The translations under genes and the position numbers were made by a program. A stretch of DNA of 64,000 nt from Bedellia somnulentella (lineage: Eukaryota > Arthropoda > Insecta > Lepidoptera > Bedelliidae), in NCBI GenBank assembly GCA_963576735.1, contig OY755198.1, forward strand, positions 1,612,001 through 1,676,000, in the 5' to 3' direction. The first letter of the stretch is position 1. The number at the start of each line of letters is the position of its first letter. Positions 8,483 through 62,200 of this stretch are shown here, piece by piece. The notes beneath the pieces were generated by a model. The model did not search any database. It worked only from the letters and a program-made list of their open reading frames with translations, and was not told where the DNA came from.

Positions 8483-11400
8483 GTATTGATAAGATAGTTT
8501 TGACAGATTTGGAGGACTTACTCGCACACTAGCTGAGTTCCTCTCGAAATCTATATGGTGGGATAATGTGAAAGTATTCTTATTGCTGTTGTCATTAGTG
8601 AATTTCGTGAGAAAACCGTTCCGTAACTATCAACATTAGTAAATTAGGAAACATTAAATATTTGTCCAATACGTTTTAATTACTATGAATAAGTACCTAG
8701 TTGTCTAGCAATTATTTAAATCCAACCCACTACCAATTTATTCTAAATTATTATAATTTAATATATTATAATTTCTATTTCTTAGCCTACACAAACATCA
8801 ACGACTGTTGAAATTTGTTGATTTGAAGTCAGCAACTAATAAAAATCTTTCTTTTTTTTATTTCTTAATATTCTTAACATCCGTTTGTCCGCAGGTGTCT
8901 GATATCATGGACATCGTCGATACAAAAAACTAAACTTTAACCTTAGTAGAATTTTCGTGTCTCTCCTTCCTAGTTTAAAAGCCTTGTGTATCTTCCCCTC
9001 TTTAGCTCACACAAATACAGATATAACAATTGGTCTATATAAATATTCGTTTGTCCGCAGGCATCAGATTTCACGGACATCGGCGACTGGCCGACGCTGA
9101 GCGCGGCGGTGGCGGGCGCGCGGTCGCACTCGTCGCCGCCGCCGCTAGATGGCGACTCCACACATCATAATGGCACTGCGGTATGTGTTTCTTTGTTTAC
9201 TACCCTCATTTTAAAGATTTTATGATGCTTCGCAAAATGGGAGCAATTTACTCCTATTTTGCTATTCTACATCCCGAGAGAGGTGACTTAAGATTTTGGT
9301 ACTTATAAGTAGTTAGAGGATGTGGATGGCGACTCGAGAAATCATAATGGAAATATGGTATTTACGAGTAGAACTATCATCATGTTTTCTATTTTGCTAT
9401 ACTTCTTTCCGCGAGTGTCTTTATATGTGACTTAGAGGATTGAAGCTTGTAAGTAGTTAGGTTTTGTGGATAGCGTCTCGAGACATCCTAAGAGTTCTGC
9501 GGTATGTACGATATTTGATATATACCCCCAAGTCTAGTCTTCCTGGTCTAGAGGTTAAGTTTTCTAGTTCGATCCCCGGGTGGTAAACTTACAAAATTAG
9601 TTTACTAAATACTTCATTAACTTTGGAATGATAATACAAACTTGAATCGGCTTCAAATGTTTCTCGGGGAAACTTACGAATTCAATTTGTAAGATTTCAC
9701 ACAGTTTGGAAGGATTTTGCTGACTTGTATCACTTGATTTCGTGCATCACGGTTGTAGTCGTTAGACTGCTAAGACGCACTGGACTGCGTAGTCCCTATA
9801 CAGGGTAGGCTCAAGCCTCGGTGGAGACATGTATGGGCTGTGAGAAACCTACAAGTGACAGATTTCATTTGACATGTGCACTTTTTCACTGATGTCTAAT
9901 TTTGTCTTTAAATTAAATCCATTATAAATATCATACCAATACTAACTTAACCATTCGAAAATTCCAGGAGCAAGACCGCAAACCGCTCGATGACAACAAA
10001 CACGAGAAGACAGACACGCAGCACTCCGAACACAGAGACAAGCACAACGAGAAACATAACGAGAAGAAACCTGCCGGTGAGGGAGATGTAGTAAGCAAGT
10101 GATTGATTGAATGAGTTAATGATGTATTTATGTGGGAATGACTTGTTGAATGAAGTGATTTTAGTATGGAGCTGGTTCATAGTAAATAATTTATACTTCA
10201 TAAGTATTGACTTTGGTGAAAAGCGGGTGATTAAGTGAGCGTGAGTTATGAGTGAATGGTTGAATGAGTTGTTGAACGATGTGATTTCTAGTTTGAAGTT
10301 GGATCCTAGCATTTCAATGAATACTTCATATTTTATGGACACTTGCAAATAAATGTATGAAATCAGACGTCTACCTTTTTGAACACAAATGCTCTATTTG
10401 ATCTAAATGTCTCCTGCGTGGCCGTCCTCTACTGACATTACCATCAACATTAAGTCTAAATTTCTAAACTTTTCATTCAGACCTTATTTAGCATGTTATG
10501 TTATATTGCAGGATTAAATACTATTTAACTTGTTCACACAGGCGGCGGTAAGGGCGCCGCTAAATCCGGCAAACACAAATGGGTGCCTCTCGATATTGAC
10601 GTGAAAGCGGCCCGGCCTGGCAAACAGGGCATTGGCCATTCGAGATTAGATAGCGGTAAGTGAGATTTGTTGTTTAGTTCTTAGGGAAATGTAAGTATTT
10701 TAATATAAACATAAACGTTCACGCCGTTTATTCCCCGAAGGGGTTGTCAGAGGTACCAATACTTCTGAACTCACATGGCAAGCGCCATCTAGTTTCCAGA
10801 GAAGGTACCCACGTTTTGCTTAGACAGTGTACTCACGTGATAGGGGGCAGGCCTATCGCCCGTTTTGTACGAATACACTGTCACATGACTAAGTACAACT
10901 CAGCCATGTGGGTTTCCTCACGATGTTTTCCCTCACCGTTTTTTTCACCGTTTCGTATTTTAATATGTTTTAAGCAAACACAAAAATACATTTAAAGTGT
11001 AAATCTAAGGTGATTACACAAGGTTTATTCAAAATAATAAAAATGCTATCTAGGATGCAAAAACGAATAAAATAAATTTGATACTTAATGTGTTCTTAGT
11101 TTTAATATTTGTTTTGTAATGTATATTTTTTAACTTTTAAATAATTGAAGCTTAGCGAGCGAAGCTTCATTTAACCCCGATTTTTGTATTTCGTATGTAA
11201 CCTAACTCTTCTAATTAAAAAGAAAAGTTTAGTTTTTAGATCCTTCTGTTTCTGTTGTGTTTGAAATTTTTGTGCCTTCGGTTACGGCGAATAATGCGGC
11301 TCTTTAATTCATTTCTATAACACACACATTATCCTCAGATCCCCGCTATGGTATATACTATACGGTGAAATGGCACGCTGTCTCAATAGTTCTAAAATGT

Positions 11401-14400
11401 GTATTCTTTATCCTATTAATATTATAAATGTGAAAGTTTAAATGATTGTGTGTTTGAGGTGAAAAGGCTTCTCAATTACAGAATGTTTATGAATGAAATT
11501 TAGCAGAATACTAGATAATGACCTCAATTATGACATAGAATACTTTTTATCCCAGAAAAAATTGACCAATAAAGTATTCACGCCTGATTGAACTCAGAGT
11601 ACTGGAAAAAACATCTAAAGTTTGTCATAAGCTAATTTACAGTACGAAGTCTGCCGGGTCAGCTAGTACTCTATATACTTCGGCCGTTCAGAGAATGCGT
11701 TCCTGGCACCTGTCAGTTAGTCATAATAAAGTCAACATAAAGCGCTGACATAACCTTGTCATAGCGCAGCATAGATTTAGAAAAATATTGTTTACCATGT
11801 TATTTGACACTCAGTTTGCACAAAATTGATATAATAATGTTGTTTTAATGCTCATTAATTGTTAAATCGGTAAACAACCAGCAAAACTATTTTTTATCGT
11901 AACTGCAAACGTCATTACAAAGTTGAATTGCGACGTGTCAGGAACGCATTCTCTGATCGGCCGAACTATAGTTTAGCGACGTACAATCTTTATTTACTTT
12001 CGTACTGTCTTTTAGAAAATCAATTTAATTTAATTTTATTGCATTATTATATTGTTAATAATTCAATTTTATCTAAATTTATTTATAATATTTTTGTTTG
12101 TGCTTTTTTTTAAATATTTTTACACACGAACTCCACTGAATAAAATTTATATAATCTTTATTTGGAATTATTTATATTTTTTTAGTATTGTAAATTAGTT
12201 GAACTAAATAGGAAATGTTGTGCATGCTNNNNNNNNNNNNNNNNNNNNNNNNNNNNNNNNNNNNNNNNNNNNNNNNNNNNNNNNNNNNNNNNNNNNNNNN
12301 NNNNNNNNNNNNNNNNNNNNNNNNNNNNNNNNNNNNNNNNNNNNNNNNNNNNNNNNNNNNNNNNNNNNNNNNNNNNNNNNNNNNNNNNNNNNNNNNNNNN
12401 NNNNNNNNNNNNNNNNNNNNNNNNNNNNTACGAACACCCACCGGAAGAAATGGGGTAGTGCTATTCTAAGCCAACACTACACAACACTGGACTACTATAC
12501 TTTATAGCTCTTTCTCGCTCTATCATACGATATGGTGTCTTGCTATATAGTCTACCTCGTTGACTATGGATGAACAGCCGGCGGTACGGACATGACAAGT
12601 ATATATACTGTGTTTAGCTCTGCCTATCATATCTCTGTCTCTGTCGTACACGAGGACGGGCGGCGCGGCCACGAACAGGTAGCTACAATATACTATACTC
12701 ACAGTCCCCTGTCTATGTCTCTCTCTGCCGTACGGTGAAAAGGCAGCCGGTGCAGACACGAACAGGTAACTTTAGTGTGCCTATCTCTGTCTCTGTCATA
12801 CACGAGGACGGTCGTCGCGGTAGGGGACGGCACGGTACCGACACGAACAGGTATGTTAAATTGGTTTTCATATGGTTTACAGCTCTTTATTGCTCATATA
12901 ATATATAAAATAAGTCGGGTTTTCCGTCCTGACAATCTAACTCAAGAACGCGCGAACCGATTTGCACGGGAAACGGACTTTGCTTGTATAATATGTTCAA
13001 TCTGTATTTATTTTAATTATTTTTATTGATCATAGTCTTCCTCTCTATCACTCTGTTTATCTCTCTCTCTCTCTCTCTCCCTCTTTCTCTCAGTGTTCCC
13101 TTTTTCGTTAGTTATATTCTCCCCACCCTCACAATTGGTCATACGCATACACTGTCTCACTCTCCTTTATGCATACTTCCTCTTTTTCCGTTTGTTCTCC
13201 TGCCCTTCTTTGTACAGATAGACAAAGTTAAATATCCTTAGAATAGCAATTGGACTCCCATTTCTTTTTTTTTGCTATCTAAAGATGTTTTAAGAACTAT
13301 TTACGCGAGCCGACTGCGAGTCGGCCATATATATATTTTTATAAAACTTACCCTTTCAAGTTCTAGTAGTGTAAAATGATTTTTTTCCCCAGCCGGTCCG
13401 CATGAACGCTCCATTGGCTGGCCTAGTAGTCCACTACGGTCTATCCGGCGTACCCGGAGTACCCACGATGCCTGGAGTACCCGGTGTACCCGGCGTACCC
13501 GTAGCCGCAGTACCCGGGGTACCTGGGGTCGTAGTGCCTCCGCCATTGGCTAGAGCGTTCTACTATAATGCTGCGCCGTACCCTATGGCTTTGGATGCCG
13601 CCACGCTTAAGGATTTGATTAAGAAACAGATGTAAGTTAAATTGTACTGTTTAATAGTCTAAAAGTAGGCTATTGGTAAGTAAAAGTAGGCAAAAGATAG
13701 GTTAATGTAAGCAAATGGCAATGGTAGGCAGTGATACTTAATAGTAGGCAACAATAGGTAAATGGTTCGTACCATTGCGTAGAATTTGCTAGGGTTATAA
13801 AAGAATGAATGTGTGTGTTAATATAGATCGCATTAGTGTTTGGAGTGGTTACGCCTCCGCCTAGTTAGTAGTAGCAAAATGGTAGGTATAGTAGGCCATG
13901 GTGAGTTAATAGTTGGCAATGGTAGGTGAATGTAAATAAGGTTGAATGATTTTGTTTCTTATTATGAAAAAATTATGTGATGGTATGTGTTGTTAATATT
14001 GAGCATCCGGAGTGGTTGTGCCTCCTCCATTGGCAAGGGCATTCTATTATAATGCAGCGCCGTATCCTATGGCTTTGGATGTTAACTCGTTAAAGGATAT
14101 TAATAAGTATAAGATGCGAGTATGCTGTGTAGTGTCGGCTTAGAATAGCACTACCCCATTTCTTCCGGTGGGTGTACGTAAGAGGCGACTAACGGTATTG
14201 GGGCTTTTAAGGGATTCTTGGGCGATGCGGTTGGAGACCCATCACCAACAACCTTTATTTTACCATCTTTTCCCCACTCAAGTGGCTGAGGAATTTCTAA
14301 TTCCTTAGCTCTGGCTACCCCTTCTAGGGATTTATAGCCGTGAGTATATGTATGTATGTATGTAAGATGCGAGTCTTGTTTGTGTAATAGTGGGTGAAAG

Positions 14401-17400
14401 TAAATAATGGAAGGTAAATTTTGTTGACTAAGAAACAGATGTGAGTTGCCTTTAGTGTTCTTAAAGTGGTAACTGACATGAATGTCGTGTTTTATGCCAG
14501 AGTCGTAGGAGAGTGAATGTGTTCGTATCAGCTAGAGATCTATGATCAAAGCTGTATTTCACGCCACCTAATTGAGGGAAAAAGTCATTTTTCATATCAT
14601 TTAGAGCATATATTTGAATCTGAATTTACTTAGAATTTGTTATAAATCCAATAAGTCAATTTAATAGGTAGAATAAACATATTCCATCATTTATTTTGTC
14701 AATATCACTTAGTATTTTCTTAGGAAAAATCTTGTGTAACATTATATTTACATTTTACTTACTATGTTTGTTAAAAATAAATGTAACAAGTTGAATTAAA
14801 AAATGGTTAAATATTCTTTGATTAGTCACACCCACAATTTAGGCCTCTGTACCCTCCTCTATAGGATGCTCGGGTTACGCATTGTGGGTAAATTAATTAC
14901 TCTCTTGGCAATTGTCATACCTTACTATAAAGTGTCACGATTGTATCGAGAGAAAACATTAAATTTGGACATGTTCATTGTTTTTATCTAGCTATAACTG
15001 AAAACCCCATTTATATTGGTTATTTACATACATACATACATATACTCACGGCTATAAATCCCTTAACGGGGTAGCCAGAGCTTTGGAATGAAAAATTCCT
15101 CAGCCACTTTTGGAAGTTGATTGGGGAAAAGATGGTAATAGTAAATGTTTTTGGTGACGGGTCTCCTACCACATCACCCAAAAATCACTTAATAAGCCCC
15201 TATACCCTTAGTCGCCTCTTACGATCACCCACGGGTAGAAATGGGGTAGTATTAAGCCGACTCTACACGGCATTTACCTAAACAATTAGTCCTGAAATAT
15301 TTACATTTCTCAACGAAAACGTGTGGCATTGGGGTCTTATTGAAAGGCGTCGGTTTTATTCATAACATATTCAGGTAACATAACTGACCTTAATTAACCT
15401 TACCATACAGTACCTGTGATGAAAAAAATATATTTGTGAACGATACCCGTCATTCGTTCGTAGTTATTATCATAAGCTTGGACTTATACATGCATCCTTT
15501 TTATTTTTATAACTACGAAATTAAATTTTTGATGGTTTTTGAGCAATGCCATTAATAAAGCAGGGGTTTGCACGGTAAGCCATTGGTCTCGGTACGTTAC
15601 GTAGTAGTCGTTAGTCTGCCAACCCGCAATTGGCCATTGTGGTGGACTATGGCCTTATTGACAATATGGGCTGTGAGTCCAAATGAATTATAACTACCAA
15701 CCAGATGACACATACCTACCATTTACCATGTATTCTTATTAATTATCGGTTACCTATTGTCATCAATATTTAATATTTACACGCCGCAAGGCAGAACAGG
15801 AAGAACATTTGTAAAAAAAACCTACCACCGCATATACTCTTGTTTCTTGTAAATAAAGGATTTTTATTTTATTTTATTTTTATTTTTTTTTATTTACCAA
15901 TATCACCAAACACTTTACACATAAAAGTAACGCCATCTATCCTCCCCAGCGAGTACTACTTCAGTCCGGACAACCTCGCTCGTGATTTCTTCCTCCGCCG
16001 CAAGATGTCGCCCGACGGAACGATACCCGTCACTCTGATCGCGTCGTTCCACCGCGTCAGAGCTCTCACCAGCGATGTGTCTAGAGTATTGGACGCTATA
16101 CGTGATTCGGATAAGTTGCAGTTGTTGGATGAGTATAAGGTAACGTGTAATGGTTGATATACATGCAAAAAGTATACATTGTAAAAAATCCAAAAGGGGA
16201 AGCCATATCTTCAGAATGTCTCCCATAGTACAGTTAAATCTAGTTTGAGAGACACGACAAAATGTTTGTAAAAAGTCGCATACATACATATACTCACGGC
16301 TATAAATCCCTTAACGGGGTAACCAGAGCTTTGGAATGAGAAATTCCTCAGCCACTTTTGGAAGTTGATTGGGGAAAAGATAGTAATAATAAATGTTTTT
16401 GGTGACGGGTCTCCAACCACATCGCCCAAAAATCACTTAAAAAGCCCCTATACCCTTAGTCGCCTCTTACGATCTCCCACGGGTAGAACTGGGGTAGTGT
16501 TATTCTAAGCCGACACCACACAGCAAAAGTCGCCAAATTCCAAAACTAAATTGTGACATATATTTGTCAAATGCAAATAAATATTTTTTAAAATAAAATT
16601 TAATGAGACATTTTTAGCCACATAAGATATATGGGGAGAGTATAGCTATATAAAGGATTATTGATAATGGGATACCAGCCACATCGTCCAATAAGCCCCA
16701 ATAAAAAGAGTTAAGAAATGGATGAGCGCCATTTTAAGCCTTCACTATATCCTCCATCCCCCACTATAAATTAAGTACCGAACTAACAGTAAACCTATAC
16801 TCAACACCTAATAATAATACCGAACAAAACTTAAATTGTATCATTTCTAATACTAGAAAAATAATAACGAAATTCAATTGCAGGTCCGCACAGCATTCGA
16901 GCCTACAAAATGGCCGATTCTCGACGCTAACATAAACCAAGCCACAAGCGAAGAGCACGTACGAAACGCGCCCGAATCCCAACATGCAAGTGCGAGCGAG
17001 ACAGAACATACCTCTACCACTGGTGCGAGCGAGATAGAAGATACAACCGCTACAAGTGTGAGCGAGACGGAACTTGCTCCCGCAGTTCATACTTTGAGTG
17101 CGAGCGAGACAGAAGATACGAAGACGGTCGGTGCGAGCGAGACGGAGACAAGCGAGTCGGATTTTCGCCGGGGCTCTAGTGAAGTGACTAATGTGGATAG
17201 TCTGTGTGTCAGTGATAGTGTCAGTGAAAGTGGGGGGGAAAAGGTAAGTCGGATTTTACTTGGGGAGGGGAGGTTTTTATGAATATTGTTTGTGGTAAGA
17301 TAAAAGTTGTTGCATAAAAAGTAAGGATATAAATTATGGACTATGTTAGAATAATGTAATTTTGAATCTGTGTTTACTTAGAATTTGTTATAAATCCAAT

Positions 17401-23400: not shown

Positions 23401-26400
23401 CCGTGAGTATATGAATGAATATGAATTCATACTCACGGCTATGAATCCCAAAAAGAGTCACACACACACTTTTATTCATCATCTACGTCTGTGGTTAAAT
23501 TTGCGTTGGCAATAGTTTTTTTAGAATCATTTCTACATACTCACGCAGTTAGTTCCTGTACGAGCCACCCTTTACATGTCAGAACAGTCAGCAGTTTACT
23601 TTATGGGGTCCTAATCCGAGTCAGTTCGCCTTTGCTACTCAAACACCGCGTGTGCTATCAAACTTCATTTATCTATATAATTTAATTATATCAATATATT
23701 ACATAACATATAACATAACATAAATATAAACGTTCACGCCGAATACTAAGGTACTAATACTTCTGATAGGTATAATAATAAGGTACTACCCGAAGGGGTT
23801 GGCAGAGGTAATAGTTCTTCTGAACATCACGTGACTTTGTCACCTGGTGTTCAGAGTACCCACGTTTTGCATGGACAGTGTACTCACGTGATAGGGGGCA
23901 GGCCTATCGCCGTTTTGTACGAATACACTGTCACATGACTAAGTACAACTCAGCCATGTGGGTTTCCTCACAATGTTTTCCCTCACCGTTAACAACCATG
24001 ATAAATTAACCACACATATATCTTTAGAAAAGACAAATTGGTGTAGGCGGGCCTACAGTCAATATAAATACAGGGTCGGGACCCTGGATTTGAACACTAG
24101 TCGCTTGCACGATAACCGAGTGTTCTACCCACTAGGCTATCACGGTTGTTATGTATGTATCAATATATTAAACCTCAATATATCAGGAATTCTTACTTAT
24201 TATTATCATTTTCTGTAAGGAAAGCCGTTATAGTTCCTATTGTAGTGGGCAGAAACTATCGATTGTACATACATATACTCATACCGTTAGTTCTTTTGTA
24301 CAATCCTTAAAAATCTTTCATGCAAAGACTCACAATCGTGGTGAAGCTTCATTTACATCTTATCAATATTTTCATACATGCCTTTATATATACCATTATA
24401 TCTTCAGGTAAAACGGCGAACAAAAGCGAGTTCCCGCGAACGCGACCGTCCCGAGCCTCGTACTGAAGGTCGAGTATCTCCTCCGCCGAGAGAAGAGTTG
24501 CATTTTCAACTTGATGAGGAATTGGAACTGCCTCCGCCGAGGAATAACGCGTTCTCTTGTTGGTAAGTAGGACAAAATGAGATAAATAGCATTAAATAGA
24601 GTAAAAACTACAATAACAGAGTAGAATAGAGAAAGAGTTAGATGAATAGAGTAAGAAAAAGAGATAGAGTATGAGAGAGAGATAGAGCCACGTACTGAAG
24701 GTCGCATATCTCCTCCGCCGAGAGAACAGTTGCATATTCAACTAGATGAAGAATTGTGCCGAGAAATAATGCTTTTAGTTGTTGGTAAGTAGGAGAAATA
24801 GATGGAAAGAGCAAAAAAAGTGCGAACAATGGAGAAAAAACTGAGAAAAATAGAATTAGAGCGCAAAAAATTGAGTGAGAGAGATAAAATTAGAGTTAAA
24901 TAGAGAAAGAGAGGGAAGAGAGAGATAGACCCGCGAACTGAAGGCGCGTCTCTTAGTAATGTGAAAATACTAAATTATTCATATCAGTGTACAAATAAGT
25001 AGTCTATCTCATTTCCTAAGACATATCTGCCAAATAATACATGTTCTATTGGCTCCCGGACTAGATAAAACCTTTATATCGGGCAACTTGTCTACTAATA
25101 AATGACTTAGTTTGTATCTCTAAATTGTCCAAATGGGCTATTTGACAATGCGAGAAACAAAGTGTCAATTGCTGTCATCAGTATAAATTAAGAGTTTAAA
25201 AATGGTTATTTATTAACGTAAGTTGAAAATAATAATTGATTTCTTTAAAAATCCATAAATAAAAATGCAATTTTTGAAACGTTTGTCACGTGACACAAAA
25301 CGTTCTTGAATGGTCGAGTTTATGATGATGTCACATGCCTGTAAAGAAATCTCGTGGCTCGTTTGTTGCCACAGACCAAATACAGGCAAGTGACGTCACT
25401 GACCCGTTTGCAGCGCCATATTGTCAAAATAGTGTTTTGACGCGCTATTTGAATATTAAATTTTTAATTTGATATTTTTCAGCAAATGTGCACCAGATTT
25501 AAAAAATATAACTTTGACTGGGTTCCTTCAACTCTACTACATCATATAAAATGGATTTTAAAAACCTGTCAAATAGCCCATTAAACAAGCCACTAACCCA
25601 CCAACCCACCTTCAGGTCCGACGAGGAAAGCGACGCGGAGTTCCCGGACGGCGACGTGGGCCGCCTGCTCATCGTGACGCAGTGCGGCCGCCCGCCGCGA
25701 CACGAGCACGCCAGGACGGCCGACTGGGAGACCCGCACCAAGATCACGCAGCAGCTGGAACAGGTGCGCTATTTGCATAAAAATAGATATGTAAAATAAA
25801 AAAAAAAAAAAAATTAAAAAAAAAAAAAATCTCAAATGCAAATTAAGATCACGATGCAGTTGGAACAGGTAGGTTATTTATGTAAAAATACATATGTTAA
25901 ATAATAATACAAAAATATGAACAGAAACAAAAGTACTTTTTTTTTACAAAAATAAAAAAAAAACTAAAAATGAGTCTCAACTGCAAATAAAGATCACGAA
26001 AATTGGAACAGGTATATTGATTATGTAAAATAGTAAAAATGGCATATTATCGTAATGCAATGCGGTAGACAGTAGCGACACGAACACGCCAGGATTACCG
26101 ACTGGGAGACCAGGACCAAGATCACGCAGCAGCTGGAACAGGTACGTTTTTTACATAAAAATAGATATGTAAAATAAAAAAAAAATACAATTAAAAAATA
26201 AAAACTAAAAATAAATCTCAAATGCAAATTAAGATCACGATGCAGTTGGAACAGGTAGGTCATTTATGTAAAAATACATATGTTAAATAATAATACAAAA
26301 TTATAAACAAAAATAAAAAAAAAGTTAAAAAAAAAAACTAAAAATAACCAAAAAAGAGTCTCAAATGCAAATTAAGATCACAAAGGTTGGAACCAGTAAA

Positions 26401-29400
26401 TAAATTGTGAAAAATAGTTTGGAAAGGCATACATTATTGTGAGGTAATAAGAGCAAAAACATAAAAATTACATACATATCATGCGTAAATATTTATTTAT
26501 TTATTAAGCATGCACACAGTACCACATCATAATATTATAATTTCCAAAAGACATAATGTTCTGCTCAGATACAGTACCAAAACAGCATGCACAGCATTAC
26601 CTAGTAAGTTGAACTATACAATGTTTCATACAAATATAAATGATTAAAAATAAAATATTGTAAATTTAATTCAATGGAAGTTCGTATATATAAACAATTC
26701 AAAAAGAAAAATAAAGAAAAATATTATAAATAAATTGAAATTAAATTAAAATTGAAATCAAATTAAAACATTAACACCATATTGTTCAATATATCGAGGT
26801 CATTTTGTAAATTCTTGCAGTCTTCATGGGAATAAATAATTTTAAATATTTTTAAATCATCGGCGTATAAAAGACATAGGTTTTTAATTTTACTTACAAG
26901 ATTATTGATAAAAATGTTAGAAAGAAGGGGAGCAAGTAATGATCCCTGTGGAATACCGGAGGTTGCCAGGATGGGTTTAGATAAATAGCCTTTTAACGCT
27001 ACAAGTTGTGTTCTATTATCAAGATATGACTTCAGTCAACGTAGAAGACTACCATGGATACCATGGATATTGAGTCGGGAGTTTCAAATTTACATTGACA
27101 GGAAAAACAAGGAACGATTTACCATTTTTGTCTTGAGTCTGATGAGTAGCCTTAGTTTAATGACCTATAGTTAATTCCTATTTTAAGTCAAAACAATACG
27201 GCTCCATGTAGGTTATATAGAATAAAGAAATAGATAAAATTAGCTGTGTAGTGTCGGCTTAGAATAACACTACCCCATTTCTTCCGGTGGGTGTACGTAA
27301 GAGGCGACTAACGGTATTGGGGCTTTTAAGGGATTTTTGGGCGATGTGGTTGGAGACCCATCACCAATAACCTTTATTTCACTATCTTTTCCCGACGCAA
27401 CCTCCAAAAGTGGCTGAGGAACTTCAAGTTCCTTAGCTCTGGCTACCCCTTCTAGGGATTTATAGCCATGAGTATATGTATGTATGTATGTAAATAGATA
27501 AAATCCCTCTTGAAGGATCAAAATGTTCTGGTGGCTTCCGTAACCTAAAATGATTATTTCAATTGCAATGAATTTAGATATTTATGTATTTTAAATAATA
27601 TTTATCTACATTACTTAAAGTCTACCCTGACCATGCGCCATAACCGTGAAACATTCTGTATATTAATTATTTTTATATTAAGATTATTTTCGATTCATGT
27701 TTTTGTATATTTGCAGGTTATTACCGATGGCTTAAGAAGATACGAAGAAGATTTATGGACAGACAACGACTACACCGGAGTAAGTTAATATTTATGCTAT
27801 AGATTTATTGCATTACATTATATATATGTTATTCAATTACATGGTTTAATACAAGTTCAAGTTAATTTTCAATAATCCATGAGTTTGTTGTGTATATAAT
27901 ATTTTAGGCTTCCGATCCATTAACTTTATCCTGATCTTATAAGTTGTGTACACAAATAATTCCATTAGAACTTGGCCACCGCGATGTACGATGTACGACG
28001 TCTATCATCTCCTTCTCTGCAGCCATGATATCGCATGGTGCCAAATTTTGATACCAACACTGGCATTAGATTACTATAGAATATGTATTTTGAATATACA
28101 TAGTACGATATATACAGTTTGAACGCACGCACGTCTCTAACCCGCAGGTATAAATTAGGTTTTGGATATATATCCTAAGAATAATCCAATTTTTTCGAAT
28201 GGATTGGTTGCTGCTGGCCCTGGGGCCTGTGCGGCTTCACCATGACTTTATGTGTTTGGGGCAGCTGAAGGCCGCCCTGGCCCGGCCAAGGAGTGTACCT
28301 AAGCTAAATCGGATAGATAGTCGCACACAAACTAGTGCGATGTACTATCCCTCTACCACGACATCTATCTTAATCCCTCTCCTCAGCCAATCTAATCTAC
28401 CGCTCAGACTCTCTCATAGTATAGTCTCATCTCATCTCAATAATAAATATATATTCTTCTACTTTGGTATCTAGGAAGGTCATATCTATTATTAGGTATT
28501 CATACTATATATCATATACTCACGGCTATGATTCCCTAGAAGGGGGAGCCAGAGCAGGGAAAAGATCGTAAAATAAAGGTTTTTGGTGATGGGTCTCCAA
28601 ACACATCGCCCAAAAATCCATTAAAAAGCACCAATATCCTTAGTCGCCTCTTACGACACCCGTTAGGTAAATACCATTCAAACCTTTATATACCACCGTA
28701 TGAAAACTTCGCCACCGCGATGTACAATCTACCTACAACGCCATCTAACGGCCAGCTTTGTCTCTATCTCAGCCATCCTACCGCACGGTGTCGCTAGTGC
28801 CCCGCGCGCAGTTCGAGCGCACGCAAGGCACCGCGGCCGCGCATTCTAACCCGCCGCAGCCGCCGCCGCCGCCGCCCTCGCTTACTGCTATGCAACAGAC
28901 GGTAACTACCTATACCATTACATAACCTATGTAATCATACATACATACATACATATACTCACGGCAATAAATCCCAGGAAGGGGTAGCCAGAACTAAGGA
29001 ATTAGAAATTTCTCAGACACTTTTGGAAATTTGAGTGGGGAAAAGATAGTAAAAATAAAGGTTGTTGGTGATGGGTCTCCAACCGCATCGCCCAAAAATC
29101 CCTTAATAGCCCCATACCGTTAGTCGCCTCTTACGTACACCCACCGGAAGAAATGGGGTAGTGCTATTCTAAATCGACACTACACGGCACCAACCTATGT
29201 AATCATTCTTATACTATTGGACTTTAGAATAAAAATAATATGAAATAGCATTAACAGGACCTTTACACAACGTCTTTGTAAGTATAAAGGGCGTTTGACG
29301 GTGCGACAAAGTGATATTTGACAAAGTGTGATATGCAAAGGAGTTTACACAGTCATAGAGGAAATACTTCCCAAAATAATTTAGCTTTATATAATTGGGA

Positions 29401-32400
29401 TATAGATCAAATACAGTTTTTAGTTTGAAAAGACTGTATAAATGTTTTGTTTTGTGAAAGTAATAATATTGGTCCTTCGAGACTATATACTATTTGATTA
29501 AAGTTCTGAAAAAAAAACACGGTTGATACTTGAGCTTTTAAATTATGTTGCTACTATTTTATGTGTATTCATTTATCTAGCGATTGAATATAATTTTGGT
29601 CCTTCGATTCAATTAAGATAAAACAAAAACGAATAGCTATAATATAATCTATAAAATATTTATATCGCAATAAAATGTTCTTAAAATATGTTTTTTGATA
29701 TTCACAACACATTTCAATTTAAGTCACACTAATAGCCATAAGTCTCTATCAACAGCTATTTGTCTCTACCAACATCTCATACCTAAAACCACATTATTAT
29801 TTAAAACATCCGCTTTTATCTTTATATCATCTAAATCATCCAATTTCCGTACAGAGCGACGCCCCATCGGAAGCCCCCAAAGGCAAGCGTCCTCGCCGCA
29901 CGGCCAGATTCTACGCGGCCGATAAAGATCCGCATGCCACCGATGTTATGTGAGTATTGTGCCTATTATTACATATTATTAAACACTTTATTGCATACAA
30001 ATACAATGTTTTTACATAGGTACAGATCATTAGGACTAAGTACACAAAGGCGGACTTATCGCCTTAACGCGATTTCTTCCAGTCAACCTTTATGGTGAGG
30101 AAAAACAAGTACAAAACGCTTAAACAGAAGTCATTGAAAATTAATATGCAAACAAAACCAAACTTAACTAAAAACACACACAACCTATTCACATACATGG
30201 GTTTTTCTCCGTAAAGTGGGCAACTTTTGGGCGAAAAGTGTCCCAGCCAATTTTTATTTAATTTTAAAGACCTGTCTACTCAATATAATAGTTTATTATG
30301 TATATAATATTATGCATTAACAGAACGCTTGAAGTTCTACTTATTTTAGGAAATATTAAACTTTTTCGAAAAAACTGACACACGGGACTGTTGCCTGCTA
30401 CAGGGGACTGACTTTTTATAAATAATATGCACTGTTTAATCACAAAATCTACATATTTATTTATCTTTTCTTGAGTACTTATGTTATACATCTTATATTT
30501 TGACAACCTCTTAAAGAAATCTTAAAATTAGCTATGAGATCTCACCTTATAGGTAAGTACATTATTATCAGTAGCTTAAATTCTTAAAAGGAATTTTGAG
30601 TTTCTGTTCAGTCCTAATTTTTAATTATCACAATCAACTTATACTTAATAAACATTTAAAAATATATAAAATTCACTTCAGCTTTCATATACTTTTAAAA
30701 GCATATTTTTTAAATTATAATTTTAAAGGCAAAACTGCAACAACATAATTTGGTATCATTTTTCAAAGACATTGACAGGTAAATCAAACTTATAAAATAC
30801 TCTATTTCCTTTTAATAAAATATTTGGACTAGGCAACTTCTCCACCACTTGATCCAATGTTACATCCGCTACATCCTCTTCATTAAATTAAAATGTTTGA
30901 CCTTTTTCATCATGTAGTTTCAGAAAAGTAACAGTAATTTCACCTTCTTCATCATCTATATCACGAATAACACTTACATATCTCCACTCCACATTCTTAC
31001 CAGGCACTCTAACCAGCACATAATCACCGTGTTTAAAATCAGTTTTATCTGTGTTACTTGGTCCAGCTTCAGGCTGTAATTCTGGTTCTGAATCTGTATA
31101 AACGCCATCCACGTTTAGTCTCGGCAATAATTCATAACCCATTTTTCCGATGTTGAAATGGGCGCAACTTTCTTCACCACAGAAGCAGCTTAAACTCTTC
31201 ATCACTAATACGACGTTACTTAATCTTAAACCTAGTGACGAATAGAAGATTCCTGTTACTTGGTAAGGAGTCCTGTCAAAACAATTTTGGCATTCTCTAG
31301 ACAAACACAGCTCTTCAAGAAGCTTTGGGTGGCTGTTATAACTCAAAATTTTACGAGAATGAAGTGCTGTCAATTTTAAGTCCACATTTGCATGTGTGAC
31401 GCACAGGCAAGTATCGCGTTCTCCAAGTTTAGGAACATCCACCCAAAATGGGCGTAGTTTACAGAAGGTCTGATAAGAGATCTTGACACGTGAAGTCTGC
31501 TTGAACTTTTTATACAAACCAAGTAACGAATCAAGCAAATATCTTTTTTGTTTCCGCAACTTTTTTGTCGTTATGAACTCCTTCTTCCCTGCTCCCAGTC
31601 TGCTATTTGGGTCATCTTGGTAGAAATTTGTGACCTCAGAAATCACTTTGCTTGAAAGTTTACGTTTTCTTGTTACAGATACTTTAGCTTTCATTATTCT
31701 TTTATAGTTTAAAACTCCAGCGTCTTTCATTCTCCATAGCTTATATTTATTCAACAACTTTCCTGACACTATTTTGGTAATCAAACGTTTCTCGGTCACA
31801 GTTTTAGTTTGAGATAAGTTTTCTTCCAATTGCTCCTTCAAGACTTCGCCGAACAAAGCTTTCTTAACTAATTATTTTCTGGATTCTGGTGTATCAAGCA
31901 TCTTTTGCAGTTTGGTATTTGGAGTTTGATTCTGAGAATTTTCATCTTGCTTCTTCTTTTCTAGTCTTGATAAGCGTTTCTTATATTTCGATAGCTTTTT
32001 CTTCAACCTCATAATTTCGTAATTTTTATTTTTCATCATCATATACCGCATTTTTCTCGCTTTATCATTTTTCTTCTTGGGCATTATTTGAGGAGCAGGA
32101 GCAGATGACTGGGTCTCAGATGCAATGGAATCAGGTGTGTTTTCCTTCACAAACATTTGCGTGATGTCTCGTAACGCCTTATTCTTTTTTCGATACTGCG
32201 TGCAGTGCTCTTTCCACTTCTTCTTTGTTTCTCTGTGTTCTCTCGGAGTCATATCTTTGACAAGTTTTTTAGAACCCTTTTCCTTATTTTTCAAGTACTT
32301 GAGGCGTACTTTCTCTCTCAGTTCTTCCCTTTTCTGTGGATCATTTTTCATACGTTCATATCGTTACGCTCATTATCTCTTTTTCTTTGTAGTGTTTCTT

Positions 32401-37572: not shown

Positions 37573-37603
<31 letters not shown>

Positions 37604-40600
37604 TCTCACGCCGTTAGTTCCCATTGGGGTAGGCAGAGACTATCGATCGCCACTTTGTACGATCCTGGCAAACCTCTCTGGCTTCGTTTACATCCATCAA
37701 TCTTTTCATACATGCTGGGAAAGGAATGCTGTGTAGTGTCGGCTATGCTGTGTAGTGTCAGCTTAGAATAGCACTACCCCAATTCTTCCGGCGGGTGTAC
37801 GTAAGAGGCGACTAACGGTATTGGGGCTTTAAAGGGATTTTTGGGCGATGCGGCTGGAGACCCATCACCAACAACCTTTACTTTACCATCTTTTCCCCAC
37901 TTAACTTTCCAAAAGTGGCTGAGGAATTTCTGATTCCTTAGCTCTGGCTACCCCATCTAGGGATTTATAGCCGTGAGTATATGTATGTAAAGGATTCTAA
38001 AATAAAGGTTGTTACTGATGAGCATCTAATCGCATTGCTTAAAATATTCTTTGAATACCCCAAGTTGCTTCTCACGAAGACACCCAGGAAGTAATGGGTT
38101 TTTGCCATTCTAAGCTGACACTACACAGCTATATTATCTTTGTTGTCGATCTATTATCAGATTGACTTTTTATTAGTTGATGTTTACCTATTTAGCTATG
38201 AGAAGAAGTCTGTAAATGATCATCACCATCAGTTATATGGTTTTACTCACTAAAATAATCACTAATGATTAAAGAATAAATGAAGGAAAGAAAAATTTCG
38301 ACACAGGCCGGAATCGAACCCGCGACCTCGGGTATACGCACCGACGCTTCGCGGGTTCAATTCCCGCCTGTGTTGAAATTTTTCTTTCCTTTATTTATTC
38401 TTTATTTATTAGTAATAATCCCCACATGAGGTTTTCATGAACAAAAAGATTTAAACTAAAATAATCATTTTAGTCATGACCTTAGTTTCCGCCCCTCTAT
38501 TAATAAAACCATTTTACAAACACAAGACAGCTAAATTAAAACTATATTTTCAATCCAGATCACTGGCCAAAGACGACGCCTCCTCAGGCTTCCGTTACGG
38601 AGTAGAATGCATGTTCCGTTTCTACTCGTACGGACTGGAACGGAAGTTCCGTCCGGAATTGTACAAGGACTTCCAGATCGAGACTATCGAGGATTATGAG
38701 AGCGGTGAGTATTTTAATAATTAAAAGGTTAAAGACTAGAGTAGATAATTTAAATCTTTTTGTTCATGAAAACCTCATGTGAGGATTATTTCTAATAAAG
38801 AATAAATATAGGAAATTGCTTTCCTTGAAGGTTTTCATGAACAAAAAGATTTAAATTATGTGATAGTTAAGCGTTTTCAACATTTGCATTCTATCTGAAA
38901 AGGTAGACCAGTGGCCGTCCGAATTAGTTAAAATTCGGAGGTAGGAAACGCAAACACTACTTAAACGTGTAAAAGAAATAAAGGATAGAAGAATTTCGCA
39001 CTGGCAGCCAACTGACACGGTGGCTCAGTTGGCAGAGCGACGGGGCGTATACCCGAGGTCGCGGGTTCGATTCCCGCCTGTGTCGAAATTTTTCTTTCCT
39101 TTATTTATTAGACTAGAGTAGAGTTTGTAAGTGCCAAATTTTTTGCTACATTTTTCGGCCGATCATATAATATTATGTTACCCTCAGTAGTTTTCATGCC
39201 TCAATATTTACGTACCTGTGATTTCATTACAATGCAATTAAATGGAGAAAGTGTCAAAATTATGTTACGCTTCAGTGCTTTTTTTTGCGCCTTAATGCGC
39301 ATTGAGTTGTTATATCATAAGCTCCCAGTGCATTTTTTTTATCTGTGTTATTTTAATACCATTTATGTAAATTTAAAAATACGTTGATTTGTGTTTTATG
39401 TTATTAAAATCAATATTTAAAAAAACATAAGATTAATAAATTATTACATGCTGTAAATCATTGTATTGTTATTCTAACAAAAACTTATTTGTTTTTTTTA
39501 TCTCTTACCTGCCTGACTGTATTCGAATGACCTTACAAAGGTTGTTATGTAGAAAAAAAACCACAACCTCCCATCTGGTTTTGTTGTAAAACTGTCTCAT
39601 TACTTCTATTAATATTTAATGTCTAATGTGCAATAATGAATTCTATTCTTTTCCCTACAAACTATAGGTACATATATCTAATATTTGTGTATCTATTTAC
39701 AGGCCAACTCTACGGCTTAGAGAAATTCTGGGCCTTCCTGAAATACTACAAGCACGCTTCGGAACTACAAGTGGAGCCGCGACTGAAAGCGCATTTAGAT
39801 CAGTTCCGCACTATCGAGGACTTCAGGGTGTTAGAGGTGGGTATTATAGGGTAACATAACTTAAAGGGTACATCAGGGTATCAAAGGGTACGGTAATCTT
39901 TATATATTATTTCTGTAAGCCTCTTTCTTGCCCGGAAGCCTGTGACGCGATGAGTTGAGCTAGAAATTTGGTTCAGGTATCGTTTTGTACAGTTCGCGGC
40001 CGTGGTGTGCACAAAATTCAGACATCTGATGTAACGGGATTAAGTTAATTGTTACAGAATTTCAAAGTTTCGATTTTGGCCCATAGACTTTGCTTGAGTG
40101 TCATAAGCGCGCGCAAACTTTAGTCGATCAGAGATGCGCTGTGATTGGTCGGATTTTTTTCAAACCGGCCAATCAGTAAAATTCACTAGAAATTCAAAAG
40201 AGCTGCGCTGTGATTGGTTGGAAAATTTCAAAATAAACTCATTTTATTGGACGCGACGTAGTCGCGCCAGGGTTACCCACTAGTTACTATAAATCTGTAA
40301 CGTCGTTTTAAGAGAGTTCATTTCAGAGTACTGTGGGATACTAAAGTGTAGTGCAGGGGCTTCAAGGTACTGTAGGGCAGTAAAGGGTAGTGTAGGGGAC
40401 TATACATTACTGTAGAGGTCTATTATATGGTGCTAAAGTTCCTCAAGTACTGAAAGCATGCTACGGAACTACAAGTGGAGCCGCGACTGTAAGCGTATTT
40501 GGATCAGTTCCGCATTATCGAGGAGTTTAGGGTACTGGAGGTGGGTAACAGGGTAATATATAGGGTGTAGCAAAAGGGGATGACAAGACAAAAGAGGGAT

Positions 40601-43600
40601 GTGAGGGAGATAATTCTGAACAATGTTTGCTATGGGCGAACTTGATAAGAGCAACTGTTTTTTCCTTTTTTCCCATTCAAAGCTATAAGTTCATCTATAA
40701 TTTTATTTACGAACTAGTACAAATGAGTCGTCAAGATATATGAATATCTATTTAGCAAAATTAAACAACGATTTATTATTAAATATAAAAAAAAGTATTT
40801 TGTTTAAAAATATTTTTCTCCTTTTTTTATAACACTAATTAAATATAACCCTTATTTTGTTTCCAGCCGCAACTAAACGAGCTCCTCTCGTCACAAGGCT
40901 CGCTAGCCCCAGGTCGCGGTCCACATGCCCGCCCCTACCTGAGACATCGCTCGCAGAGTGAGAGCGACAGACAGACACGACAACTCGCGTATGTATATAT
41001 ATGTTATGTTATTGAAATAGTCGGAATTAAATGGGCTATCGTTCGGTGAAAGTTACATCCAAATCAGTTCAGTAGTTCAAGAGATAAAGCGCTATAAACA
41101 GATAGGCAACTTTCCTACCTGTGACATTGCTCGCAGAGTGAGAGCGACCAACAGACACGACAACTCGCGTATGTATAGATATATTTTATGATAAGAGCAT
41201 TCGGCATGAAATAGGCTATCGACCGGTGAAAGTTTGATCCAAATGGGTTCAGTAATTTAGGAGATAAGGTGGTACATACAAATAGACACACAACTTGCGT
41301 GTTTGTATATAATATGGACCCACGCTCGCAGAGTCAGAGCGATAGACAGACACGACAACTCGCGTATGTATTTTAAAAATTCTGTTCCAAAACACTCTGT
41401 TAAATGAGCTATATTAAGGTGAAAGTCCCGTCCAAATCGGTCCAGTAGTTTAGGAGATAAGTTAGTACATACAAATAGACAGACAACTTCGTATGTATGT
41501 ATAATATAACCCCACGCTCGCAGAGTGAGAGCGACAGACAGACACGACAACTCGCGTATGTATATATAAATTATGTTACCAAAACACTCTGTTAAATGAG
41601 CTATATTAAGGTGAAAGTCCCGTCCAAATCGGTCCAGTAGTTTAGGAGATAAGTTAGTACATACAAATAGACAGACAACTTCGTATGTATGTATAATATA
41701 ACCCCACGCTCGCAGAGTGAGAGCGACAGACAGGCACGACAACTCGCGTATGTATATATATTTTATAATATGGGCTATCGTTCGGTGAAAGTTTCATCCA
41801 AATCGGTTCAGTAATTGAAAAGATAAGTTGGTACATATAGAAAGACGGACAATTTCGTATGTATATATATACTATGACTCCAAGCTCGTAGAGTGAGAGT
41901 GATAGACAGACTCGGCAACTAGCGTATGTATAGATATTCTGCTAACACACTCATTATTAAATTCGACCAGTGAAAGTTTGATGCAAATCGGTCCAGTAGT
42001 TTAGGAGATAGCTGGTACATACAAACAGACAGACAAAGTATCTGTATATAATATTAATAATTTACTTGTTACTATATCAGCTATGTTCCGGTGAAAGTCT
42101 TGTCCAAATCGGTCTACCCGTTTTAGACGACGTCTTTGGTCTAGTTGAAAGTTTTTATTATATTGTTATTTATAACCGTTATATTATGCAGCTGTGTAGT
42201 GACGGCTTAGAATAGTACTACCCCATTTCTTCCGGTGGGTGTACGTAAAAGGCGACTAACGGTATTGGGTTTTTAAGGGATTTTTGGGCGATGCGGTTGG
42301 ACTTTGGAGACCCATCACCAACAACCTTTATTTCACCATCTTTCCCCACGCACCTTCCAAAAGTGGCTGAGGAATTTCTAATTCCTTAGCTCTGGCTACC
42401 CCTTTCTTGGGATTTATAGCCGTGAGTATATGTATGTATAAAGTTTCATTCTCTTTTCTCTACGCTCTATCCATACACAACACAATGATGAAGGTAACCT
42501 AACCTAACGATATAGTTCCAGCAACACGGTGATTCCCAAACTTCCGGCCAACACGAACAGAACTCGCGCCGGGTCTTGCGGATCTAAGATCGTGGTCGCC
42601 GGCAGTAGCCAGAGATGTGAGTATTCATCATTATTTGTTATAAACATTTAAGGAAAAGAAAGCTGAATGTTATTTTTGCTTCAGAGCATAAACGACAAAA
42701 AAAATATATAATAACTACGTAATAAAAAAATAAATTGTTTTTTTCTAATATAAATACCATATCCGGGGTTCTTAATAATCCTACTGTCAAAATTTGTTTA
42801 AAAATTGCATCATAGGTAGTCATACTTTTTTTTTAAAATGGAAGACACCTGACTGATGATCCCACGCCAAGACACTCGTTTCCATTATACTGAGATCTAT
42901 ACGGATTCAATAGTAATAACATAAAAGCGAATTATTCAAATTCGGTGAAAAATTTTCCCAATTATCAGAAGAAATTATTGATTTTAGACCAAACCTCACA
43001 GGCGGAAATCGAACCTGCGACCTCGGGTATACGCCTGTGTCGAAATTTTTCTTTTCTTTATTTATTATTTATTTATTAATCGTAATAAGTATATTTAAAA
43101 TAAAACTGAAAATGTAATGGGTGCGACAAGCATTTGTAACGGGTGTAACACAGTATAATTTTGCAAGTTTTATGGTAAAGTAAAATATGTTATAAAAACC
43201 TCATGTGGGGATTATTACTAATAAATAAATAATAAATAAAGGAAAGAAAAATTTCGACACAGGCGGGAATCAAACCCGCGACCTCGGGTATACGTCTGTG
43301 TCAAAATTTTCTTTCCTTTTTTATTATTTATTTATTAGTAATAAATCCCCACATGAGGTTTTCATGAACAAAAAGATTTAAATTACTTATTACGATGTTT
43401 GTACATTTCAAATAACGTAGTCATTTGAGAAAACTAGTCAAGTTTAACATATAAAAATCTTAGTGTATACTTTCATTAAAAATTTTACAGGTTTAATATC
43501 GAAAGTCATCTTGTTCGCATCAAGAGATTTCCTAAGGTCGCACCCGTTACGCGATTATGACGTGCTAGATCTTTATTATAAGTTTCTATACAGATCTTGT

Positions 43601-53882: not shown

Positions 53883-53975
53883 AGGCCGAGTGGATAGGTG
53901 ACTCGCTTCTTGGTCCGGAAGTCTCGGTTCGATCCCCGCTGGCAGCGACATATTTAAATCTATGATTCAGAATGA
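53883..53975 (+). mobile_element. tRNA-headed SINE fragment (family C)
   Basis: 'AAGGCCGAGTGGATAGG' and 'GGTTCGATCCCCGCTGGCAG' are similar to the complement at 3479-3561. A tRNA-like head without an identified body. Confidence 0.55.
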
Positions 53976-57862: not shown

Positions 57863-57982
57863 TTAGTTTTTAGCGGAATTTATTCAGTAATTTTTGTACT
57901 GAACTACGTTTGGTTTCCGGTCCATTTACTTAAGTCCTCTATACGCGGTAGCAACTGAAAATAAACTTTATGTGTGAGGTAA

Positions 57983-58132
57983 ATGATAAATTCCTCAGCC
58001 ACTTTTGGAAGTTGTGTGGGGAAAGGATGGTGAAATAAAGGTGTTGGTGATGGGTCTCCAACCGCATCGCCCAAAAATCCCTCAAAAGCCCCAAAACCGT
58101 TAGTTGCCTCTTACGTACACCCAGTACTACAC
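57983..58132 (-). mobile_element. SINE family R without its 3' tail
   Basis: It keeps the middle and a shortened head, yet is flanked by a perfect TAAATGATAAATT duplication. The tail is absent although the insertion is bounded. Confidence 0.75.
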
Positions 58133-58139
58133 AGTAAAT

Positions 58140-59168: not shown

Positions 59169-59201
59169 CTAATCATAAACTGGAACTGGTAGAAGGGCCG
59201 T
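59169..59201 (-). CDS. DDHD phospholipase putative last exon
   Basis: Acceptor 'TTTCTTTCAG', ten codons '[10 protein letters not shown]' and TAG at 59169-59171, phase 0. The splice site and phase are good, but so short an exon could be a coincidence. Confidence 0.55.
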   Translation of the reverse strand, partial: TALLPVPVYD

Positions 59202-62200
59202 CTGAAAGAAAAACACAACAAATCTTCAATTTGCATTAAACCAGAAGGGGTAGGTACTGGGTTTGTTCAAAGTTAGTAAAATATTTTGACAGAAAAGACA
59301 TGTGGGTATCCTCACGATCTTTTTCCTCATTCCAAACAAACTTGATAAATGAACAACATATTTGACTCAGAACTACAAAAGGGGTGCGCAGCGCAGGTAG
59401 ATTAAAAATTTATTGTTCCACTTAGAAGTATTCCCAATTATAAATTCTTGTTCTACATATATACATATACTCACGGCCATAAATCCCAAAAAGGGGTAGC
59501 CAGAGCTAGAAACTCCTCAGCCACATTTGGTAGTTGATAGAGGACAAGAGGGTAGAAATAAAGTATCGTTGGTGATGGGATCTGAAGGGGAAAAGATGAA
59601 ATAAAAATATAATTACCTGAAGGGTATCTAGAAGACTCTAGTTCCTGGAAAGTAAATATTTTTTTGAAATATAATTCTCTATGTGGTAGGCCTCTCGAGC
59701 TTCATTTACATTGATCAATTTAATAAATAAAGAATAAATAAAGGAAAGAAAAATTTTGACACAGGCGGGAATCGAACCCGCGACCTCGGGTATACGCCCC
59801 CGTCGCTCTGCCAACTGAGCTACCGTGTCAATGGCTGCCAGCGCGAAATTCTTCTATCCTTTATTTCTTTTACACGTTTAAGTAGTGTTTGCGTTTCCTA
59901 CCTCCGAATTTACCCGAGGTCGCGGGTTCGATTCCCGTCTGTGTCGAAATTTTTCTTTCCTTTATTTATTCTTTATTTATTAGTAATAATCCCCACATGA
60001 GGTTTTCATGAACAAAAAGATTTAAATTATTGATCAATCTATTCATACATGCTCATTCATTCTTCACACTTCGGATCTTCACATTCACATTGTTAACCAA
60101 CTTAACATTCTTTTGTCACTTATTAGGTAACCGTAAAATACAGAATAGATATTTTTAAAAGGTAATTTTAAAAACACTCACAATTTAAAGTAAATCTATT
60201 GTATATCTATTTTTTTTTATTTTATTATTGAGTGATATTTAAGATTTTTTTTATTGTTCTACCCTGCTCTAGTCCTACAAAATATACCCTTAGGGTCCTC
60301 CCTTACCTTCTCTGCTATGGTTATAGTTCTTTCCACTGTCATTTTCTGCTGACATTACTTCTATACATACTTCTTATTTTGAACTATATGATTTTTTTAA
60401 CCATTCCATTGCCTTTTCAATCTATCACATAACCTTACATAACCAAATTAATAATCTTATGTCTAAAAACAGATTTATTTTATATCTACCTTCATTTTTA
60501 TTGTATAATTAAGTGCAATTTCACCATAATTTTTGAAAACCTTTTCTTGTCACACAAAATATCTCCCCCCTCCCCTGTATACCCTAAGGGTCCTCCCCTA
60601 CCTGTTCCGCCAAGGTCCTAGTTCGCTCCACGGTCATCTTCTGTTGCGGAACTGTGGTGTCAGGGTTGATGCCTATCGAGTCGTACACCTCTTTTAGGAT
60701 CATTAGCATTGTGTCTTCGGATTCCCTGCGAAATTTTGCATAAATTAGTATCGGCTCATAATAGCGCTAACCCTTTTCTTCCCGTAGGTGTTCATAAGAG
60801 GAGACTTTAAAAACTTACACTAACAACCACTATATTAAAATTTAATTTAAATCTTTTTGTTCATGACAACCTCATGTGGGGATTATTACTAATAAATAAA
60901 AGAAAGAAAAATTTCGACACATGCGGGATTCGAACCCGCGACCTCGGGTATACGCCCCCGGAGGTAGGAAACGCAAACACTACTAAAACGTGTAAAAGAA
61001 ATAAAGGATAGAAGAATTTCGCGCTAGCAGCCATTGACACGGTAGCTCAATTGGCAAGAGCGACGGGGGCGTATACCCGAGGTCGCGGGTTCGAATCCCG
61101 CATGTGTCGAAATTTTTCTCTCCTTTATTTATTAGTATATTAAAATCTTTTTCCTACTCAACTTCCAAAAAAGGCTGAGGAATAGTTATTATTCTAATTC
61201 TCTGGCTACCCCTCCTATGGATATATGCAATATATAGAAGAAATAGCTATAAAAAATTTCTGGGAATCAGGGAATACCCAGGTTGTACATATATACATTA
61301 ACTCACAGCTATAATCACCAACAACCTTTTTTTCACCACCTTTTCCCCACTCAACTTACCAAAAGTGGCTGAGGAATTTCGAATTCCTTAGCTCTGGCTA
61401 CCCCTTCTAGGCATTTAAAGCCGTAAGTATATGTATGTGTGAGTACACTGTCTAAGCAAAACGTGGGTACCTTCTCTGGACACTAGATGGCGCTGCCATG
61501 TGAGTTCAGAAGTATTAGTACCTCTGCCAACCCCTTCGGGGATAAACGGCGTGAACGTTTATGTTATGTTATGTATATATGTATGTATGTCACAGCTATA
61601 ATACCGAAAAGGGGTAGCCAGGGCTTCAGAATAAATAATTACTGAGCCTCTTCTAAAAGTTAAATGTAATAAAGGATAACATAACATAAACGTTCACGCC
61701 GAATATTCCCGAAGGGGTTGGCAGAGGTACTAATACTTCTGAACATCACGTGACTTCGTCACCTGGTGTTCAGAGTACCCTCGTTTTGCATGGACAGTGT
61801 ACTCACGTGATAGGGGGCAGGCCTATCGCCGTTTCGTACGAATACACTGTCACATGACTAAGTACTACTCAGCGATGTGGGTTTCCTCACGATGTTTTCC
61901 CTCACCGTTAACAACCATGATAAGTTAACCACACATTTGACTTTAGAAAAGACAAATAGGTGTAGGACCGACCCAGGATTGGAACTCACGCCCTTCTGTT
62001 TTTCAGGCGGGTGTTCTGCCCACTGGACTATCATGTCATTTTAATTTAAATCTTTTTGTTCATGAAAACTTCATGTGGGGATTATTACCAATAAATAAAG
62101 AATAAATAAAGGAAAGATTATTTTTTTTCCCCCACCGCCTGTGTCAAAATTTTTCTTTCCTTTATTTATTCTTTATTTATTGGTACTATCATGTCATATA

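Follow-up and report, generated by a model that had tools for sequence, protein, structure and literature searches.

Arrays of exon-end copies with their splice sites in LARP1 and other genes of Bedellia somnulentella

Introns of LARP1 and of several other genes in the Bedellia somnulentella genome carry local copies of one end of a neighbouring exon. We examined 22 such arrays at the DNA level, and each of them is built of a repeated unit that takes in the end of an exon together with the splice site and part of the neighbouring intron. These arrays are very probably explained by short tandem duplications, each with one of its breakpoints in an exon and the second in the intron beside it. The window, by which we mean the whole stretch of 64,000 nucleotides analysed, covers positions 1612001-1676000 of contig OY755198.1, in an assembly that totals 548.9 Mb in 486 contigs. 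The SINE-like repeats (resembling short interspersed nuclear elements) and the style of the introns suggest a lepidopteran source. This one assembly was the data source for all of the arrays. LARP1 lies on the plus strand of the window; we placed its 17 exons by their splice sites, and its identity is backed by a La domain (E = 6e-22) and a LARP1 HEAT domain (E = 4e-75). Together with two exons of a neighbouring minus-strand gene, it gave a set of 19 exons, referred to here by their first positions, of which 37 exon ends were tested.

Exon-end copies and their geometry

Copies in the window were detected by self-BLAST, followed by comparison of real with shuffled queries within 1.2 kb, with repeats masked. 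A local copy within 1 kb and on the same strand was found for 8 of the 19 exons (7 of 17 in LARP1 and 1 of 2 in the minus-strand gene), each copy consisting of one exon end, its splice site and a part of the adjoining intron. A sequence-only reading of this DNA had already reported such copies, most of them same-strand and within 1 kb; self-BLAST bore out that description for seven LARP1 exons (9061, 13393, 24408, 25616, 36264, 39703 and the end of 40867) and for exon 60602 of the minus-strand gene. Exon 28773 was removed from the list because its matches are nearly all intronic, dispersed and about 7 kb away (28682-28781 with 36032-36134, and 28655-28773 with 35629-35753). For the eight supported exons, no opposite-strand local copy appeared among the self-BLAST matches listed, and the far matches listed were two, both at exon 36264 and both starting past the exon end in a repeat resembling a short interspersed nuclear element (SINE). 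Sequence and unit length differ from array to array, so that membership of all copies in one transposon family, a result named with the sequence-only reading as refuting it, was not obtained.

Exon 9061-9180 (array 8876-9507) has an acceptor-end copy upstream at 8876-8920 and donor-end copies downstream at 9325-9361 and 9469-9507, both of which retain GT; it was counted twice among the arrays, once for each side. The 3' part and donor of exon 13393-13631 (array 13393-14121), at 13525-13637, recur at 14009-14121 with 78% identity over 113 bp; the donor of this copy reads GC, a SINE-like repeat starts at the copy, and 14424-14459 may be a further short remnant. In exon 24408-24562 (array 24408-24953) the unit is 232 bp long, 24453-24684 being followed directly by 24685-24953, and 24453-24711 matches 24685-24953 at 70% with the copy donor retained. 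Exon 25616-25763 (array 25616-26467) has given a nested tandem array of its 3' end, donor and intron, in which 25671-26061 (391 bases) matches 26049-26448 at 81%; a unit that was repeated before has been duplicated again here, over 378 bp. Two acceptor-end copies lie upstream of exon 36264-36415 in a tandem array of about 415 bp (35373-36415), where 35373-35547 matches 36182-36356 at 78% and 35411-35968 matches 35826-36358 at 68%; position 35874 belongs to an upstream copy. The 3' part and donor of exon 39703-39836 (array 39703-40560) recur at 40439-40560, with 85% identity over 124 bp at a distance of 704 bp; the copy donor is retained, and the copy has stop codons in the exon frame. The end of exon 40867-40988 and the GTATGT motif that comes next seed a 180-192-bp minisatellite that runs to about 42123 (array 40867-42123), seen both by a tandem repeat finder (40934-41267 and 41129-41761) and by BLAST. 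We read this exon as internal, with its donor at GTATGT, the other reading being that it is the last exon. On the minus strand, exon 60602-60726 (array 60187-60726) has a donor-end copy at 60287-60351, within a matching stretch of 60187-60351 (65% over 185 bp), and the copy donor is retained. Repeats with a tRNA-like stretch and with inverted and direct copies flank this exon at 59733-60029 and 60843-61133.

The arrays follow a strict rule of sides. In 22 of 22, donor-end copies lie downstream of the exon and acceptor-end copies upstream. Seventeen are donor-side arrays (9061, 13393, 24408, 25616, 39703, 40867, 60602 and loci L005, L020, L021, L024, L025, L028, L030, L031, L032 and L034) and five are acceptor-side arrays (9061, 36264, L026/L027, L033 and L035); L013, in which a coding end and its 3' flank are in tandem, was left out of the count. 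Contiguous head-to-tail units are seen at 24408, 25616, 36264, 40867, L021, L024, L028 (147-327, then directly 327-509), L031, L032 and L035, and other sequence intervenes between the matching parts at 13393, 39703, L005 and L020. A whole exon with both splice sites was repeated in 0 of the 22 arrays; the nearest cases are L005, where about 7 bases are missing from the start of the exon, and L033, where about 27 are missing from its end. In the LARP1 model, the copies occupy the existing introns beside the exon, and no new intron lies inside the coding sequence. The donor side is favoured by 17 to 5 (p = 0.017), or by 9 to 3 (p = 0.15) in the five families described below. This excess would reflect, as far as such small numbers go, a greater disturbance of splicing by an additional acceptor, or by an additional whole exon, than by a second donor downstream.

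Excess at exons and spread through the genome

Copies were clearly commoner at exon ends than elsewhere in the window, so that the other result named as refuting the sequence-only reading, equal frequency near exons and in random intron pieces, was not obtained here. Nine of the 37 exon ends, in 8 of the 19 exons, beat their shuffled queries clearly. Of 250 random pieces of the window outside exons and repeats, 23 had a local copy, and 18 of these 23 lay inside exon-anchored arrays; the difference is significant with all 250 pieces as the control (p = 0.012) and more so when pieces inside arrays are left out (5/232, Fisher p = 8e-6). Two of the five remaining positives (13790 and 13795) are possible remnants of exon 13393 copies. 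With identical BLAST settings, 8 of the 11 local duplication clusters in the window lie on exons. The same search of 180 kb elsewhere, 60 kb of which adjoins the window, gave 7 clusters, labelled by inspection as two coding ends (L005 and L013), two repeat-like sequences (L010 and L015) and three others.

Exons would appear to have been struck more often than introns. The chief alternative is that duplications fall anywhere, and that the exon cases are only more visible since exons have a conserved, complex sequence. This is possible, though we consider it unlikely. Local duplications away from exons do exist, at 10093, 12630 and 33586 in the window and at several places in the 180 kb. In simulations, exon-partial and intron duplications were found equally (120/120 each) up to 10% divergence per copy and almost equally (118 vs 110) up to 20%, while at 20-30% the exon-partial ones were detected more often (76 vs 24 of 120), as they were above that (6 vs 0); an earlier simulation without BLAST gave an exon/intron detection ratio of up to 1.2. 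The longer window copies differ from their exons by 6-13% at codon positions 1 and 2, the short copies of 25616 by about 12-20% and those of 9061 by 22-27%. Because simulated detection is near equal at the divergence of the longer window copies, differential decay can account for part, not most, of the excess in the window. The rate of arrays elsewhere also speaks for this alternative, being far below that of the window, and events in introns are few as a baseline. The window had arrays at 8 of 19 exons against 12 of 334 elsewhere (p = 1e-6), rates that are not like for like, as detection was at the DNA level in the one and at the protein level in the other; the stretch around LARP1 is a possible hot spot.

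To follow the arrays beyond the window, exon-like matches of protein families were searched genome-wide for local repeats of one part of a domain. Further arrays numbered 12 among approximately 335 matches of five families, namely kinesin (2), myosin (3), HECT (2), ubiquitin hydrolase (2) and SNF2 (3), and all 12 were then examined as DNA. The matches were counted by eye with copy rows removed (kinesin 79 less 2, myosin 79 less 9, including 3 Mhc rows, HECT 62 less 3, ubiquitin hydrolase 94 less 14, SNF2 73 less 24); the sum of 335 is approximate, with some gene duplicates and bridged exons among the rows, and the statistical test used 334. E limits were up to 10 for HECT, ubiquitin hydrolase and SNF2 and 0.001 for the other families, and candidates were scored for 65 of 116 in myosin, 126 of 529 in the kinases, and in full for the other four families. 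Arrays in genes of all five families indicate that the process extends beyond LARP1. What the family counts document is this spread, and they are no measure of enrichment over introns.

Identity across these 12 arrays ranges from 75% to 100%, and therefore both old and recent events are represented, with copy numbers of up to about 21. At L031 (C23:14632750-14633600), the end of a ubiquitin-hydrolase exon (C23:14633208) recurs after it in eleven matches that are spaced 129 bp apart. This spacing equals 43 codons, and the frame is open across the fetched stretch, so that the array could in principle be translated. At L035, 21 matches of the start of an SNF2 exon (C17:15152424) lie upstream of that exon, most of them at intervals of 140-190 bp. 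The fetched units are 100% identical in both L031 and L035, which fits recent expansion. The SNF2 exon-start repeats, about 21 in L035 and C17:15152711-15156350, include the acceptor, and each unit has a short internal repeat that ends in an acceptor-like CAG. Read by eye, the junctions of L032 and L035 have short shared motifs close by. Unit numbers elsewhere are three for a HECT exon on C3, four for a ubiquitin-hydrolase exon on C2 and four for a kinesin exon on C5. Possible copies at C1:11046255, C21:896208 and C9:4787038 are candidates outside the 12-array count. A HECT match at C6:11942317 (L029), considered as an acceptor-side copy, proved at the DNA level to consist of ordinary successive exons. 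Four near-whole myosin repeats (C16, positions 374-440) were excluded as alternative Mhc exons, which we take to be the known ones.

Proposed mechanism, decay and alternative explanations

Under the proposed mechanism, a tandem duplication with a unit or spacing of about 120 to 970 bp would have its breakpoints in an exon and the adjoining intron. Whichever side was struck, the gene would keep one full exon and that exon's splice sites, and the duplication would therefore be tolerated. With one breakpoint in the exon, donor-end copies would in consequence fall downstream and acceptor-end copies upstream. The truncated extra copy would stay in the intron and decay neutrally, while some duplications would later expand into minisatellites and some would be recent. 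What the data themselves show is the tandem geometry, the placement on one side of an exon that stays whole, the spread through the genome and a decay of neutral type. The initiating step may be the repair of breaks through fill-in followed by joining, or else a template switch where short homology exists. We would extend this only tentatively, and with more doubt than confidence, to the proposal that tandem duplication in this lineage has its mutational hotspots in exons, possibly by virtue of their being GC-rich transcribed islands among AT-rich introns, so that introns grow from exon ends and a natural library of duplicated splice sites of graded age is filtered by selection, leaving many donor-side, fewer acceptor-side and very few whole-exon copies.

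The decay of the copies was assessed in 14 donor-side arrays, where exon and copy differ at 55/614, 39/619 and 112/609 sites of codon positions 1, 2 and 3, that is, at 9.0%, 6.3% and 18.4%. This is the pattern of a free, neutrally decaying copy beside a constrained exon. Coding constraint on the 13393 copy, considered from a run of synonymous-only differences, was rejected, as over the full length positions 1 and 2 differ too (6/36 and 3/36).

Several points weigh against short tandem duplication as the explanation. The copies of 13393 and 39703 lie 484 and 704 bp off and match in the exon part and a few intron bases only, short of strict contiguity. The breakpoints are placed by inference from a single, duplicated state. 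The excess of third-position differences, at 2.4-fold, is slightly higher than the value of about 1.7 that a rough estimate gives for neutrality. The kinase search found no array among 138 matches, although it was less sensitive, with 126 of 529 candidates scored.

Another explanation is that the copies are maintained as alternative or decoy splice sites, and the sequence-only reading had suggested that copies with intact donors could be used. GT is indeed retained in 26 of 28 aligned donor copies. However, by our own arithmetic about 85% of GT would survive by chance at 7.6% divergence, so this retention is unremarkable, and the search also prefers copies that align across the donor. Moreover, read-through to the best-scoring copy donor meets an in-frame stop in 14 of 14 donor-side arrays, and use of these donors would therefore mostly yield truncated or decayed mRNA, though the frame of L031, which is outside these 14, stays open over its fetched stretch. 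Maintenance for use as splice sites is very improbable. We give as little weight to the view that assembly errors created the youngest, identical arrays. The complete identity of the fetched units of L031 and L035, whose copy number the assembly alone provides, agrees with it, but the window arrays and most of the others are diverged and therefore represent real sequence, which limits the doubt to the copy number of the youngest.

Gene conversion, which would move exon ends into introns or keep them alike, was one of the two genome-wide processes that the sequence-only reading had put forward, the other being repeated short tandem duplication. Homogenisation could produce the identical units seen in several arrays (L031, L035), as youth could equally; ordinary decay in the diverged arrays and head-to-tail units with matching intron make conversion most unlikely as the explanation, although short conversion tracts may have occurred, and it is short tandem duplication that the 12 arrays in five further families extend beyond the window. 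Least probable of all is a transposon family bearing exon ends: although transposon-like insertions adjoin some copies (13393, L005, L020), eight distinct exons are involved with sequence particular to each array, the far matches listed within the window comprise only the SINE-like repeat beside 36264, a genome search of one stretch (9061-9400) returned a single match, itself, and the masked repeats are sequences other than the array units.

Known counterparts and neighbouring sequence

The kind of array described here is already known, because human CBS has close counterparts. A 31-bp variable number of tandem repeats, c.1444_1467+7(16_21), comprises 24 exon and 7 intron bases in 16 to 21 repeats (PMC2630376). 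To judge by the variant name, its repeat holds an exon end and intron start, as our donor-side arrays do; it differs in being a single locus with a shorter unit, polymorphic in people, whereas here there are many genes and longer units in one assembly. The CBS variant 844_845ins68 is a 68-bp duplication of the intron 7/exon 8 junction, and it gives normal mRNA because the distal site is strongly favoured (PMC2630376). That source calls the sites donors, while by position the junction is an acceptor junction. The variant thus resembles the acceptor-side form, as a single human variant in contrast to several genes and repeated arrays here.

Tandem and mutually exclusive exon duplications (PMC9013439, PMC12343006) are likewise local duplications within a gene, and the surveys also include partial and intronic matches; they mainly concern whole exons with both splice sites, whereas our arrays repeat one end only. 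Genes with partial and intronic events are reported to outnumber those with whole-exon events (PMC12343006), and exonic nucleotides having a homologue of at least 80% identity in the extended gene are put at about 2% in human and 0.08% in fly (PMC9013439). Intron gain by tandem genomic duplication (PMC3443670, PMC4974935) also adds splice sites through a short duplication in a gene; there an exonic segment turns into a new intron, whereas here existing introns lengthen and the exon is unchanged. Fill-in at DNA breaks followed by joining gives small tandem duplications without repeats at their ends (PMC8355091), as described for induced breaks in human and mouse cells with insertions mainly below 100 bp, and the units here are longer. 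For boundary-spanning arrays, we found the human CBS cases and no genome-wide account, in a literature of which subscription papers were covered to a limited extent. The novelty is the abundance of exon-boundary arrays in one genome.

Should such arrays prove common, they would amount to naturally occurring experiments with duplicated splice sites, offering many near-equal pairs of graded age in one genome, and RNA could reveal which site is chosen. They would further contribute to intron growth, to variable lengths next to splice sites and to spurious exons in gene models. The skew of donor over acceptor side, if it holds, would indicate on which side an exon can bear an additional splice site.

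Exons of the minus-strand gene lie at 60602 and at about 63885, and the gene may extend into the adjoining stretch with L005, whose exon matches WWE in a domain search (E = 1e-4). Exon 60602 matched no family in Pfam; the gene may be a DDHD gene, the label given by the sequence-only reading. In LARP1, exon 10542 is in another frame in the joined coding string, and its acceptor or phase is provisional. An assembly gap of 200 N lies within a LARP1 intron at 12229-12428. A stretch of about 100 bp occurs in two LARP1 introns (28682-28781, 35170-35226, 35629-35753 and 36032-36134), ending at 28773 on the exon acceptor. Open frames at 236-3403, with a translation like that of an endonuclease and reverse transcriptase, suggest a retrotransposon lacking long terminal repeats (non-LTR). 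Two long open frames inside a LARP1 intron at 30891-32363, on the minus strand, are probably a transposon gene.

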